A stretch of 64,000 bases of DNA from contig NZ_FNCE01000002.1 in NCBI RefSeq assembly GCF_900100655.1, forward strand, positions 310,001-374,000. Direction: 5' to 3'. Numbering within the stretch: the first letter of the stretch is position 1; the number at the start of each line of letters is the position of its first letter. Below, piece after piece: positions 56,890 through 63,093 of the stretch. A program made the position numbers and the translations under genes. Source of the stretch: Limimonas halophila. Lineage in GTDB: Bacteria; Pseudomonadota; Alphaproteobacteria; Kiloniellales; Rhodovibrionaceae. The notes below the pieces were generated by a model. That model was not told the DNA's origin and did not search any database. It was given only the letters and a program-made list of their open reading frames with translations.

Positions 56890-57945
56890 TCAGGGCTCGC
56901 GCAGCCATTCCGCGGCCTCGACCGCGGCGTAGGTCAGCACGCCGTCGGCCCCGGCCCGCTTGAAGGCCAGCAGGCTCTCCAGCACAACCTGACGGTTGTC
57001 CAGCCAGCCGCGCTCCACGGCGGCCTTCATCATCGCGTACTCCCCGCTGACCTGGTAGGCGAAGGTGGGCACGCGGTGCGCGTCCTTCACGCGCCGCAGG
57101 ACGTCCAGGTACGGCATCCCCGGCTTCACCATCACCATGTCGGCGCCTTCCTGCAGGTCGAGGCCGACCTCGCGCAGCGCCTCGTCGGTGTTGGCCGGGT
57201 CCATCTGATAGGTCTTCTTGTCCCCGGCGAGGAATCCGCCGGAGCCCACGGCGTCGCGGAACGGGCCGTAGAAGGCGCTGGCGTACTTGGCCGAATACGC
57301 CATCATCTTCACGTCCTGGTGCCCCGCGGCGTCCAGCGCCCGCCGGATGGCCCCCACGCGCCCGTCCATCATGTCGGACGGGCCGATGATGTCGCAGCCG
57401 GCGTCCGCCAGCGTGCGCGCCTGCCGGATCAGCGCGTCGATCGTGGCGTCGTTGGGGATGCGCCCGTCCTCGACCAGGCCGTCGTGACCGAGTGCGTTGT
57501 AGGGGTCGAGCGCGACGTCGCACATCAGGCCGATGTCGGGGACCTGGCGCTTGATCTCGCGCACGGCGCGGCAGACGAGGTTGTCGGGGTTCCACGCCTC
57601 GGCGCAGTCGGCCGTCTTGCGCTCCGAGGGGACGTGCGGGAAGAGCGCCACCACGGGAATGCCGAGATCGCGGGCGCGAGCGACCGCGTCCACCGCGCGC
57701 TCGATCGACAGCCGGTGCACGCCCGGCATCGAGGGCACCTCGCGCCACACGTCGGTGCCGTCTTCCAGGAAGAGCGGCCACATCAGATCGGCCGGCGTCA
57801 AGCGGGTCTCCGCGACCAGCCGGCGGGTCCAGGGCTCGCTGCGGTTGCGCCGCAGGCGCACCGTGGGAAAGGCGCCGTGAGCCGCCGGCTGCGGCGCCGC
57901 GTCGGGGCCGGTGCCCGGCCCGCGCGAAGAGGAAGTGTCACTCAT
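56890..57945 (-). CDS. hemB: Delta-aminolevulinic acid dehydratase (porphobilinogen synthase), Mg-type
   Basis: A 351-residue enzyme of tetrapyrrole synthesis. Active-site lysines lie in MVMVKPGMPYLD and MAYSAKYASAFYGPFR. The metal-binding loop reads LMCDVALDPYNALGHDG: the three zinc cysteines of the Zn-type enzyme are replaced by aspartates, giving the magnesium-type. ATG at 57945 adds a short N-terminal extension. It is convergent with minE. Confidence 0.96.
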   Translation of the reverse strand: MSDTSSSRGPGTGPDAAPQPAAHGAFPTVRLRRNRSEPWTRRLVAETRLTPADLMWPLFLEDGTDVWREVPSMPGVHRLSIERAVDAVARARDLGIPVVALFPHVPSERKTADCAEAWNPDNLVCRAVREIKRQVPDIGLMCDVALDPYNALGHDGLVEDGRIPNDATIDALIRQARTLADAGCDIIGPSDMMDGRVGAIRRALDAAGHQDVKMMAYSAKYASAFYGPFRDAVGSGGFLAGDKKTYQMDPANTDEALREVGLDLQEGADMVMVKPGMPYLDVLRRVKDAHRVPTFAYQVSGEYAMMKAAVERGWLDNRQVVLESLLAFKRAGADGVLTYAAVEAAEWLREP

Positions 57946-58940: not shown

Positions 58941-59768
58941 TCAGCCCGTCCCGCGTTCGCCGAGCGGGTCCGGCACCAGGGTGCGGCCGTGCAGCGCGTT
59001 CAGCCAGTCGAGTCCCGCGCGCAGGCGCACCACCTCGCCCACGACGATGACGGCGGGCGGCTCGATCCCCGAGGCGGTCACGTCGGCCGCCGCGTCAACC
59101 AGCGTGGTTTCCAGCACGTGCTGGCGCGGCGTGGTGGCGCGGCTGACGATCGCCACGGGCTCGTCGGGCGGCCGGCCGCCCGCGCGCAGCCGTTCCGACA
59201 TGGGCTCCAGGTGCTTCATGCCCATGTAGACCACGAGCACGGGCGCGCGGCAGAGCGCGTCCCAGTCCAGGCTGGTGTGCAGCGCCCCGCCGACGTCGTG
59301 GCCGGTTACGAAGGTGACGGCGGAGTTGGTTTCCCGGTGCGTGAGCGGAATCCCCGCGTAGGCCAGCCCGCCCAGGCCGGCCGTCATGCCCGGCACGATG
59401 CGGAAGGGCACGCCGGTGTCGGCGAGGGCCAGGGCTTCCTCACCGCCACGTCCGAAGACCAGCGGATCGCCGCCCTTCAGGCGCACCACGCGCCGGCCGG
59501 CGCGGGCGTGCTGCACCAGCCGCAAGGAGATGTCGCGCTGCTTGGCCGAGGGTCGGCCGCCGCGCTTGCCAGCGTGCTCCAGCTCGACGCCCGCCGGCAC
59601 GAGGTCGAGCACGCCTTCGTCCACGAGCGCGTCGTAGACCACGACATCGGCCTGCTGGAGGGCATGATAGGCCAGCAGCGTCAGCAGGCCGGGATCGCCC
59701 GGCCCCGCCCCGACGAGCCACACCCATCCGCGCAGGAGATCCGGAAACTGTCCGCGTTCGCCGACCAT
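58941..59768 (-). CDS. cobA: Uroporphyrinogen-III C-methyltransferase
   Basis: A 275-residue SAM-dependent tetrapyrrole methylase: LVGAGPGDPGLLTLLA at residues about 18-33, KRGGRPSAKQRDI, VVRLKGGDPLVFGRGGEE and PLTHRETNSAVTFVTGH. It makes precorrin-2 for siroheme or cobalamin. There is no fused CysG dehydrogenase/ferrochelatase part, so those steps lie elsewhere. It follows the ABC-exporter gene by 55 bp. Confidence 0.95.
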   Translation of the reverse strand: MVGERGQFPDLLRGWVWLVGAGPGDPGLLTLLAYHALQQADVVVYDALVDEGVLDLVPAGVELEHAGKRGGRPSAKQRDISLRLVQHARAGRRVVRLKGGDPLVFGRGGEEALALADTGVPFRIVPGMTAGLGGLAYAGIPLTHRETNSAVTFVTGHDVGGALHTSLDWDALCRAPVLVVYMGMKHLEPMSERLRAGGRPPDEPVAIVSRATTPRQHVLETTLVDAAADVTASGIEPPAVIVVGEVVRLRAGLDWLNALHGRTLVPDPLGERGTG

Positions 59769-59823: not shown

Positions 59824-61518
59824 TCACGCCGCCGCGGCCGGCGGACCGCCCAACATCGCCGCCGCCGGCCCGCCGGCCTCCAGCAGCGCGCGCGGCGCCC
59901 CATGCTCCACCACGCGGCCGTCGCGGACGAACCAGACGGTGTCCGCGGCGAGCGCGGCGTCGCGGTCGTGCGTGACCATGAGGACGGTCGCCGGCGTCGT
60001 TCGCAGCAGCGTTCGCAGCGCCGAACGGCCGGCCGGATCGAGCGCGTCGTCGGCCTCGTCCAACAGCAGCAGCCGCGGCTGCGCCAGCGCCGCCCGCGCC
60101 AGCAGCACGCGCCGCCGTTCCCCGGCGGAGAGGTTTCGCCCGCCTTCCGCGAGCTTGCCGTCCAGCCCGCCCAGGCGGTCCAGGACGCCGGCGAGCCCGT
60201 GCGCATGCGCGACCGCTTCGATGGCGTCGTCGTCGGGGCGCTCGGCACAGGCAGCCGCCAGCGCGGCGCGCAGGCTGCCTTTCAGGATCGGCGTCGCCGC
60301 GCGCACCAGCGCGATCTCGCGCGCCCGCCGCGAGGGCGGGACGTGGCGCAAATCCGCGCCGTCCAGCCGAACGTGCCCGCTCGCCGGGTCGTCCAGGCGC
60401 GCCGCGAGGTCCAGCAGCGTCGACTTGCCCGCCCCGTTGGGCCCTACCACAGCCACCCGATCCCCGGCGGAAGCCGATGCTGTCAGCTCGTCGAGCGCGC
60501 CCGGCACCTCGACATCCTCGAACGCGAGCGCGGCGGGCTGCGCCGCCGGTTCCGGCGTCGGCGCGTCGGACTCGGCCGGATCCGGCAGCGCCGGGAGTGT
60601 CAGCCACTTGTGCACCTTCTGATGGGCCACCGACCAGGCGCGGTAGCGGTCGCACACCAGCGCAAGATCGCGTAGCGGCGTGGTCGCCAGGCCCAACGCG
60701 GTCATCACACCGACCGCGGTGCCGACCGGGGCATCCGTCACGATGGCGGTGCCCAGCACACAGGCCACGGCGGCGCCGCCGATCAATTCCGGGATCGCGC
60801 GGATGGTTTCGATGGCCACGGCGCGCCGCACCGCCGCGGTCCGCAACGCCCGCATGCGCCCGTTCAGCCGCCGCAAGTCGGCATTCAGCCGCCCCATGAG
60901 GCGCAGCTCGGGCGCCACCGGCATGCGCTCGTTCATGTCGGCGGCGATGCGGCCACGCTCCTGGCGGACCTCGCGGTTGGGCGCGATCAACGCCGGGGAA
61001 GCGAGCGCCATCACGATCACGGCCACGAGCAGGGGCCCGGCGGCGGCCAACGCCAGCGGTACGCTCATCACCGCCAGCAGGCCCAGCATCACCGGGAGCA
61101 TGCACCCCGCCGAGATCAGCCGCGCGACCCCCTCGCTGACCCAAACCTTGAAGACGCGCAGATCGCCGATATAGCGGATCGCCAGGTAGCCGCTGCGGCG
61201 ATGGGCCAGGGTGCGCGCCGGCAGGCGGGCAATGTGCGCGAACAGCCGGCGGCGCAGGTCGGCGGCGTACGTCTGGCCGATGTGCTCACCGATCCCGCGC
61301 TCGGCGACGCGCAGCCCGGCCGTCAGCGCGCCGGCCGCGACGAGCCCCGCGAGCGCCAACCATGGAAGCCCCGCCCCGCTGCCGCCAACATGGTCGAAAA
61401 CGCTGCGCGTGGCGGCGGCGACCACCGCCGCGGCCCCGGCCTCGACCCAGGCAAGCCCAACCAGCACCGCGATCCGCCGCGTGCGCCCGCGCGTGAAGAT
61501 GGGCGGCGGCGCGCTCAT
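59824..61518 (-). CDS. Fused ABC exporter (membrane domain plus ATPase), substrate unknown
   Basis: A 564-residue half-transporter. About five to six helices lie within residues 15-290; the ATPase is at about 330-564 with Walker A GPNGAGKS (359-366), signature NLSAGERRRVLLARAAL, Walker B LLLLDEADDALDP and a switch His in VTHDRDAAL. The region where the Q-loop glutamine should be reads LVRAATPILKGSL, so that glutamine is absent. It overlaps the P-loop NTPase gene upstream by 4 nt. Substrate and direction are not evident; an exporter fold is inferred. Confidence 0.85.
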   Translation of the reverse strand: MSAPPPIFTRGRTRRIAVLVGLAWVEAGAAAVVAAATRSVFDHVGGSGAGLPWLALAGLVAAGALTAGLRVAERGIGEHIGQTYAADLRRRLFAHIARLPARTLAHRRSGYLAIRYIGDLRVFKVWVSEGVARLISAGCMLPVMLGLLAVMSVPLALAAAGPLLVAVIVMALASPALIAPNREVRQERGRIAADMNERMPVAPELRLMGRLNADLRRLNGRMRALRTAAVRRAVAIETIRAIPELIGGAAVACVLGTAIVTDAPVGTAVGVMTALGLATTPLRDLALVCDRYRAWSVAHQKVHKWLTLPALPDPAESDAPTPEPAAQPAALAFEDVEVPGALDELTASASAGDRVAVVGPNGAGKSTLLDLAARLDDPASGHVRLDGADLRHVPPSRRAREIALVRAATPILKGSLRAALAAACAERPDDDAIEAVAHAHGLAGVLDRLGGLDGKLAEGGRNLSAGERRRVLLARAALAQPRLLLLDEADDALDPAGRSALRTLLRTTPATVLMVTHDRDAALAADTVWFVRDGRVVEHGAPRALLEAGGPAAAMLGGPPAAAA

Positions 61519-62648
61519 GCGGGGGCGCCGGCAGCGTTGGCGGAGGGGTCCTCGCTCGCGGCGATCCGGACCTCGGGCTCGACCGCCGCGGCGCTTTCCA
61601 CCGGTCCCGGAACCTTGTGGCCACCGTCGAGGATGCGCAGCGCACAGGCGGGGTCGAGGAGTTCGCTCGTCGGCTTCACGGGCGCGGCGACCGCGGTCTG
61701 GGTTTCCTGGCTCGCCAGCGGCCCGTTGGTGAACAGCCCCGACATGGCCAGCATCGACAGCCCGCAGCTCCGCACCGCCTGATCGCCGGCGACGGCACCG
61801 AGCGCATCGGTCGCCGCGAACACCACGCCGTCCACGCGCCGCCGGAACGCCGCCCGGCGCATGAGCGCGGCGGTTTCCGCCTGATAGACGCCGTCGGCCA
61901 CTTCCATGACCACTGCCTCGGCCCCGTCCGCGATCAGGTGCGCCACCAGACTTTCCATGGCGGCCCCGATGCGGGCCGGGGACTGGCGATAGGTGGAGGC
62001 CATGCCGGCGTCGGTGAAATCCAGCACGCGGTGCGCGCCAGCGTCGGCGAAGGCGTGAACATCCTTGGACGCCCCGGTCCCGGTCACCTTGGCCGCGCCC
62101 ACCGCCAGGCCGCCGCGGCTCAGCCCGTGGATCAGGGAGGCCGCCACCGTCGTCTTGCCGGCGTTCATGGCCGAACCGACCACGGCGATCACCGGCACAC
62201 GGGCGCGCGACCGCCGGAACGGCAAGCCATAGCTGGCGACGTTGACGGTCTTGCCGGTCGCGTGGGTGAGCAGCCCCAGCGGTCGTACCGAGGTCGGCGC
62301 ACTCATGTCCGTGTGGGCGTGGCGCATCCGGCCGATGATGCCACCGCCGGCCACGAGATCCGCGCCTTCCCCGTCGAGACTGGCGACGGCCTCGAACTGA
62401 TCGGGGGCATACCGGTCGCCGCAGGCCGCCACCACCAGATCGCCGCGGTAGAGCTGCGCCATCCGGCCCGTGCGCAGTTGCAGGTTCTTGTGCTGGCCAA
62501 CCGATCCAACGCGGGCCAGCACGAGATCGCCCGAGCGGGCGCGCGTCAGGTCGCTTTCCAGGCCGGCCACGTCGGCAGTCGCCACCCGCCGGGTCGTGAA
62601 CGCCCACTTTGCCTGGGAGAGCACGGAGCCGTTGGCGCCAAGGGTCAT
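61515..62648 (-). CDS. P-loop NTPase of MobB/BioD-like fold, function unknown
   Basis: A 377-residue protein I do not recognise as a named family. Residues 1-145 are a beta-rich N-domain (GDLVLARVGSVGQHKNLQ); from about 152 a SIMIBI-type P-loop domain begins: Walker A GSAMNAGKTT (158-167), then VGAAKVTGTGASKD (183-196), like the KPVxTG segment of BioD and MobB. Next come VLDFTDAGMASTY (208-220) and an acidic VVMEVADGVYQAE (246-258). It is the first gene of a coupled pair with the ABC exporter. ATG at 62648 has GGGAGCGAAGCGAG upstream. Confidence 0.7.
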   Translation of the reverse strand: MTLGANGSVLSQAKWAFTTRRVATADVAGLESDLTRARSGDLVLARVGSVGQHKNLQLRTGRMAQLYRGDLVVAACGDRYAPDQFEAVASLDGEGADLVAGGGIIGRMRHAHTDMSAPTSVRPLGLLTHATGKTVNVASYGLPFRRSRARVPVIAVVGSAMNAGKTTVAASLIHGLSRGGLAVGAAKVTGTGASKDVHAFADAGAHRVLDFTDAGMASTYRQSPARIGAAMESLVAHLIADGAEAVVMEVADGVYQAETAALMRRAAFRRRVDGVVFAATDALGAVAGDQAVRSCGLSMLAMSGLFTNGPLASQETQTAVAAPVKPTSELLDPACALRILDGGHKVPGPVESAAAVEPEVRIAASEDPSANAAGAPA

Positions 62649-63093
62649 CTCGCTTCGCTCCCGTATCGGTTGCCGCCGGCGACGGAACGGCTCGGCCGGA
62701 TGCCCTCGACACTGCCGCGCCGAAACCGGGAGTCCGTAGCCTGACATAACGCGCGTGAACCGGGTTGTGAGATTTTCGGAGCGAAACTGTTACACACGGC
62801 GCGGTTCTTTGCCATGCCCCGGAAGCGGGCACGCACCACCCGCGACAGGGTCGGTATCGGCCAAGAGGAGGGTCACGATTTCGCCGTCGATCTTGGACCA
62901 GGCCGGCGAACGGCGCCCTCTGCCCGCCCCGCCCAGGTTCCGCCAACGCCCGGGCTCCGTAGGGGGATGTAGGCGACGAGCGGAACGGCCGGGCTGCGCA
63001 CCGTTCGCGCCGGGCACCATCGTGTCCGCGACAGAAAAGCGCCGGATCGGGAGAAACCGATCCGGCGCGTTCAGGCCAGCACAGAGGGGGACG
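62649..63093. promoter_or_regulatory. Intergenic region between rpoH and the P-loop NTPase gene
   Basis: 445 bp without a convincing gene. It contains the rpoH terminator at 63039-63068 and, nearer the NTPase gene, AT-richer DNA around 62764-62815 that should hold the promoter of the two-gene unit. A 15-nt match to the sequence before the TauE gene lies at 62789-62803. Confidence 0.5.
63035..63068 (-). terminator. rpoH terminator
   Basis: A perfect 12-bp stem (63039-63050 with 63057-63068) with loop GAGAAA, followed on the minus strand by TTTT. It lies 26 bp after the rpoH stop. Confidence 0.9.

Follow-up and report, generated by a model that had tools for sequence, protein, structure and literature searches.

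An overlapping P-loop NTPase and ABC half-exporter gene pair in Limimonas halophila as the candidate core of a make-and-export module

A 64,000-nt stretch of Limimonas halophila DNA (NZ_FNCE01000002.1; hereafter the window, in whose positions all coordinates are given unless a locus is named) carries a gene for a P-loop NTPase that runs directly into a gene for an ABC half-exporter, which raises the question of what an NTPase and a transporter might accomplish together. The first-pass annotation of this DNA proposed that the NTPase makes or activates a small molecule that the transporter then moves. The features relevant to this proposal are as follows.

61515..62648, minus strand: NTPase gene, 377 aa; an open frame with coding base composition, belonging to a conserved, unnamed family of two-domain P-loop proteins
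62205..62648, minus strand: N-terminal all-beta domain of the NTPase, residues 1-148 (AlphaFold2 pLDDT 94.5, conservation and fold searches)
61614..62201, minus strand: predicted BioD/DUF1611-like SIMIBI P-loop domain, residues 150-345 (VIA-align Z 15-17; hhalign to BioD E 1.9e-6)
62151..62177, minus strand: P-loop, G158-T166 (GSAMNAGKT), in which G158, G164 and K165 are invariant
62073..62090, minus strand: KVTGTG, residues 187-192, by sequence and by alignment to BioD KPVQTG; K187 is invariant
61890..61904, minus strand: EVADG, residues 249-253; E249 is invariant and lines up with the Glu in the glycine-rich loop of BioD
59824..61518, minus strand: ABC half-exporter gene, 564 aa; a single chain holds both the transmembrane and the nucleotide-binding domain
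61515..61518, minus strand: 4-nt overlap (ATGA) of the NTPase and ABC genes, read from the sequence; -4 is also the commonest spacing in relatives
63039..63068, minus strand: terminator-like hairpin after rpoH and upstream of the pair, from a consensus scan only

Organization of the NTPase-ABC pair

Both genes of the pair are intact by their reading frames in the window. The NTPase gene begins with ATG and is preceded by GGGAG about 10 nt upstream; the third-position GC contents of the NTPase (0.88) and ABC (0.91) genes are similar to those of the neighboring rpoH and cobA. By the consensus scan, the hairpin sets rpoH apart from the pair, and no Rfam match was found between positions 57000 and 64000. 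Two earlier claims, that the genes overlap by 4 nt and that the exporter is a fused protein, were borne out: the ABC protein is a single chain in which PF00664 (ABC_membrane, 42.3 bits) and PF00005 (ABC_tran, 82.3 bits) both score above their Pfam cut-offs, and its Walker A (GPNGAGKST), signature (LSAGE), Walker B, and H-loop motifs are intact. We rejected the specific identities CydC (174 bits against a cut-off of 329), CydD (163 against 435), and MsbA (158 against 602) for this protein. Directly downstream of the ABC gene, on the same strand, lies a cobA/SUMT-type uroporphyrinogen-III methyltransferase gene (58941-59768). As cobA was not seen next to the pair at any surveyed locus, it was dismissed as a functional partner, and its adjacency in the window is treated as chance.

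Fold and family membership of the NTPase

The AlphaFold2 model of the NTPase, built on an alignment of 37 sequences, has a mean pLDDT of 91.8 and agrees with the first reading of the protein: residues 1-148 are mostly beta, residues 150-345 form a SIMIBI domain, and the latter includes the KVTGTG segment. The model gave VIA-align Z scores of 15-17 over 170-200 residues and the motif order of BioD; the structural matches of the P-loop domain include TM0796 (2g0t, Z 16.9), BioD (about 16), the DUF1611 protein 2obn (15.1), and DgcN (7xrj, 14.8). By its entry title, the last is a D-glutamate N-acetyltransferase, which carries out an acetyl-transfer step. Profile comparison by hhalign pointed in the same direction, with E values against BioD of 1.9e-6 over 159 columns for the core-family profile and 1.6e-7 for a mixed profile including distant members; against DUF1611/DgcN, the family profile gave E 0.04, which is not significant. 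A BioD-like fold is thus predicted.

The label 'BioD/MobB-like' that was first given to the NTPase holds at the level of fold but not at that of family, since no cut-off was reached in Pfam or NCBIfam; the best scores below cut-off were 22.1 bits for MobB (against 26.6) and 23.4 bits for a MobA/MobB model (against 379). Three identities were therefore discarded: BioD (dethiobiotin synthetase), whose model TIGR00347 is absent from the hits at E values up to 1; MobB/molybdopterin, for which TIGR00176 reached 21.8 against 76.2 bits in addition to the PF03205 shortfall above; and DUF1611/DgcN, whose model PF07755 (cut-off 25 bits) had no hit in the window protein and reached 20.0 bits, below the cut-off, in one relative. 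The genome also encodes a separate true BioD (G000:C1) and a separate bona fide DUF1611 protein, to which the NTPase of the window adds a third representative of the fold group.

The N-terminal domain is also mostly beta when predicted alone. Its conserved residues are H53, R62, R79, Y80, D83, Q84, and E86, and in the alignment R62 and R79, together with K187 and E249 of the P-loop domain, are invariant in distant members of the family too. A conserved, arginine-rich beta domain suggests a ligand site. The domain had no match in the PDB (best Foldseek E 0.39; best VIA-align Z 3.4, to LexA), which does not prove a new fold, and DUF1611 is absent from its Foldseek and VIA-align match lists, an absence that does not exclude a shared fold.

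Conservation and gene company of the pair

One scan of genome contigs yielded 39 loci from Gamma- and Alphaproteobacteria, actinobacteria, Chloroflexota, Acidobacteriota, and Planctomycetota, and further loci came from plasmids and from relatives of the window genome. Where at least 1.7 kb of room was available (61 loci), an ABC gene of the same family lies directly downstream of the NTPase gene on the same strand in 50, with spacings from -25 to +125. The pairwise distances of the two proteins across these 50 pairs correlate strongly (Mantel r 0.84), a value reached in none of 2000 permutations (maximum 0.17). The pairing is far beyond chance; because the loci were found through the NTPase, the counts hold for NTPase loci rather than for every such ABC gene. 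Occurrence is patchy, at 23 of 61 genomes of the window's order, 4 of 299 in a phylum sample that includes the window's own genome, and 5 of 149 in another family. Two outcomes had been named beforehand as counting against the proposal, an unconserved pair and a match to a characterized family. Neither was found: the pair is widely conserved in the neighbor survey, and by curated cut-offs neither protein falls in a characterized family.

On a Microvirga ossetica plasmid (NZ_CP016620.1; L046:5881-7644), a 587-aa frame annotated as a transposase carries the NTPase domain in its first ~340 residues and looks like a fusion or a misannotation. Elsewhere (L146:9063-9899; G439 contig C1 853772-854772), the NTPase match is broken in two and has transposase-like genes within a few kb, which suggests decay of the module in that genome. 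A phage origin was rejected, as PHROGs and a scan of viral contigs were both empty; one putative-phage fecal contig in the phage set carries an NTPase-ABC pair. Anti-phage defense was likewise set aside, since PADLOC had no hit for the NTPase or for the hydroxylase and hydrolase described below and matched only the ATPase domain of the ABC protein. The first-pass annotation knew of no named system with this pairing, and we found no description of the pair or the module in the open-access literature. Searches there for the pair, the module, the combination of partner genes, LpqC with an ABC transporter, and a P-loop N-acetylglutamate synthase returned nothing relevant (subscription literature was outside their scope), and those for DUF1611 returned unrelated papers only. 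The superfamilies are known; for their combination, for the N-terminal domain, and for the arginine-linked branch presented below, the open literature gave no description.

The earlier remark that nothing adjacent explains the pair applies to the window but not to its relatives, where several further genes are linked. A PahZ1/LpqC-type alpha/beta hydrolase with a GxSGG nucleophile motif and conserved Asp and His is encoded nearby in 40 of 65 loci, a response regulator in 25, a histidine kinase in 23, and an Asp/Asn-type hydroxylase (PF05118) in at least 13; close relatives, of which L087 and L094 are examples, have these genes arranged as hydroxylase, hydrolase, NTPase, ABC, kinase, regulator. 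An ECF sigma factor, an anti-sigma-like protein, and an S8 subtilase, which is secreted, also recur with the module (7 of 65 loci each), as at L083:3212-6063, L087:432-3151, L094:2449-5155, L043, L044, and L144; in the first three of these loci, the signal peptide of the subtilase is followed by a long poly-Asp or Asp/Asn stretch. The window genome yielded an ortholog of neither the hydrolase nor the hydroxylase, and its histidine kinases match the module kinase at only 25-38%, mostly over the kinase domain. The window genome thus appears to keep only the two-gene core, which is the form in most actinobacterial loci too. Seemingly lacking the hydrolase, the hydroxylase, and the module's own two-component genes, the core there would work either without them or with unlinked substitutes.

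A more distant branch of the family, at about 24-34% identity, lacks the ABC gene; given this divergence and the missing transporter, its members may perform different chemistry. In two phyla, these homologs keep company with argC and argB: at L135:6089-9739 (G377 contig C23), the order is EamA-argR-NTPase-argC-argB, with the EamA-type transporter upstream, and on a Planctomycetota contig (L041:5713-10021), the NTPase gene and argC overlap, with argB and an M20 deacylase gene in divergent orientation. Another distant homolog (L134) adjoins an M20 glutamate-carboxypeptidase-like gene. On a Priestia megaterium plasmid (NZ_CP085446.1; L045:2730-11418), the homolog belongs to a biosynthetic cluster of phosphonate type, which also encodes PEP mutase, ornithine carbamoyltransferase, M20, TPP enzyme halves, and two ATP-grasp proteins resembling L-amino-acid ligases. 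No ArgJ was found in the L135 genome, which is rated 100% complete, and no ArgA with a GNAT domain in 1.75 of its about 2.6 Mb; over this 1.75 Mb, E. coli ArgA matched only the argB-like kinase, and argH is present. The NTPase-like genes of L135 and L041 are candidate replacements for N-acetylglutamate synthase.

Proposed function, rival explanations, and known systems

The presence of distant relatives inside arginine-making clusters suggests that the pair makes and exports a modified acidic amino acid. The reading we prefer, with a probability of roughly 45%, is of an NTPase that acts on an acidic amino-acid-like substrate, by activation or N-acylation, and of an ABC protein that exports the product. 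The NTPase-ABC pair would then be the core of an accessory make-and-export module. The BioD-type P-loop domain would use ATP or, as in DgcN, act with an acyl donor to activate or acylate the substrate, which the conserved arginines of the N-terminal beta domain probably help to bind. Most likely, an acidic amino acid or something closely similar, such as Glu, Asp, or hydroxy-Asp, would gain an amide or N-acyl linkage, and the half-exporter, probably as a homodimer, would carry the product out of the cytoplasm. In the fuller loci, modification of the substrate may fall to the hydroxylase (Asp/Asn beta-hydroxylase family) and cleavage of the product to the PahZ1/LpqC-like hydrolase. The original idea of a small molecule made or activated by one protein and moved by the other thus has indirect backing from the BioD-type fold and profile and from distant homologs in arginine-type and peptide-type clusters. 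The chemistry itself (reaction and substrate), what is exported, and in which direction are our inferences from the fold, the conserved residues, and the neighboring genes.

The main rival makes the NTPase a helper of the exporter rather than a biosynthetic enzyme: an ATPase or switch for its gating, loading, or assembly, in the manner of MinD, HypB, or SRP-type SIMIBI proteins. The tight coupling and co-divergence of the two genes would fit such a role, as would the high rank of the SIMIBI switch proteins SRP54 and FtsY in the Foldseek list and the lack of any other linked module gene in the window genome. Against this, distant homologs with the same conserved residues occur without the ABC gene in biosynthetic clusters, the NTPase gene stands apart from the ABC gene in three loci (L004, L012, and L092), and the conserved arginine-rich beta domain hints at a ligand site; we therefore consider this role rather unlikely, if the strongest of the rivals.

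Less likely than an accessory ATPase are systems for polymer export or lipid flipping. In the first, an anionic polymer or oligomer (of the poly-Asp, polymalate, or hydroxybutyrate type) would be made, exported, and recycled, with the NTPase activating the monomer, the ABC protein exporting, the hydrolase depolymerizing, and an OprO/P-type porin passing the polyanion. The profile of the linked hydrolase indeed matches LpqC (E 5.8e-36) and poly(Asp) hydrolase-1 (E 2.4e-35) in the PDB, the hydrolase also resembles PHB depolymerase-like proteins, and Porin_O_P is encoded beside the module in 10 of 65 loci. However, PHB-esterase-like proteins have broad substrates, the module has no polymerase-type gene, and neither the window locus nor most actinobacterial loci have the hydrolase and the porin, all of which makes such a polymer system improbable. 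As for an MsbA-like flippase serving the remodeling of a membrane lipid, with an LpxO-like hydroxylase acting on an acyl chain, it may draw on the MsbA-type similarity of the ABC protein, a weak resemblance (19 bits) of the linked hydroxylase to LpxO, and the two-component and ECF regulation in relatives, but the MsbA and LpxO models lie far below their cut-offs, the hydroxylase is equally near L-proline cis-4-hydroxylase, and no acyltransferase or glycosyltransferase is linked, leaving it very improbable.

Returning to synthesis and export of an acidic amino-acid derivative, a broader version is possible, if doubtful: the NTPase family would be a P-loop enzyme class of a new kind that N-acylates amino acids or forms amides with them. 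Its exporter-linked branch would supply an acidic amino-acid derivative for export, and its ABC-free branch would take the place of N-acetylglutamate synthase (ArgA/ArgJ) where arginine-type clusters occur in some Alphaproteobacteria and Planctomycetota. A two-gene unit that recurs in proteobacteria, actinobacteria, chloroflexota, and acidobacteriota under no named family probably signals an overlooked exported metabolite; if the arginine-linked cousins do substitute for N-acetylglutamate synthase, the family would fill a missing step in a central pathway.

Among known systems, BioD shares with the NTPase the SIMIBI fold, the P-loop, a Lys in KPVQTG corresponding to K187, and the Glu corresponding to E249, but it lacks the extra N-terminal beta domain, and the NTPase does not occur in biotin clusters. 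DUF1611, DgcN, and TM0796 have the same two-domain layout and P-loop domains among the best structural matches, and some members of the NTPase family are named DUF1611 by PGAP; their structural matches, however, barely cover the N-terminal domain of the NTPase. MobB is similar in the P-loop region (PF03205), but no molybdopterin genes were noticed beside the NTPase in the surveyed loci. The ABC protein resembles exporters of the CydC, CydD, and MsbA type in being a single-chain transmembrane and nucleotide-binding half-exporter, and differs in scoring far below their cut-offs and in co-diverging with the NTPase. Finally, PahZ1 and LpqC are related to the hydrolase linked to the pair, of which no ortholog was found in the window genome; a PahZ1 enzyme cleaves beta-Asp amide bonds (PMC4456602).
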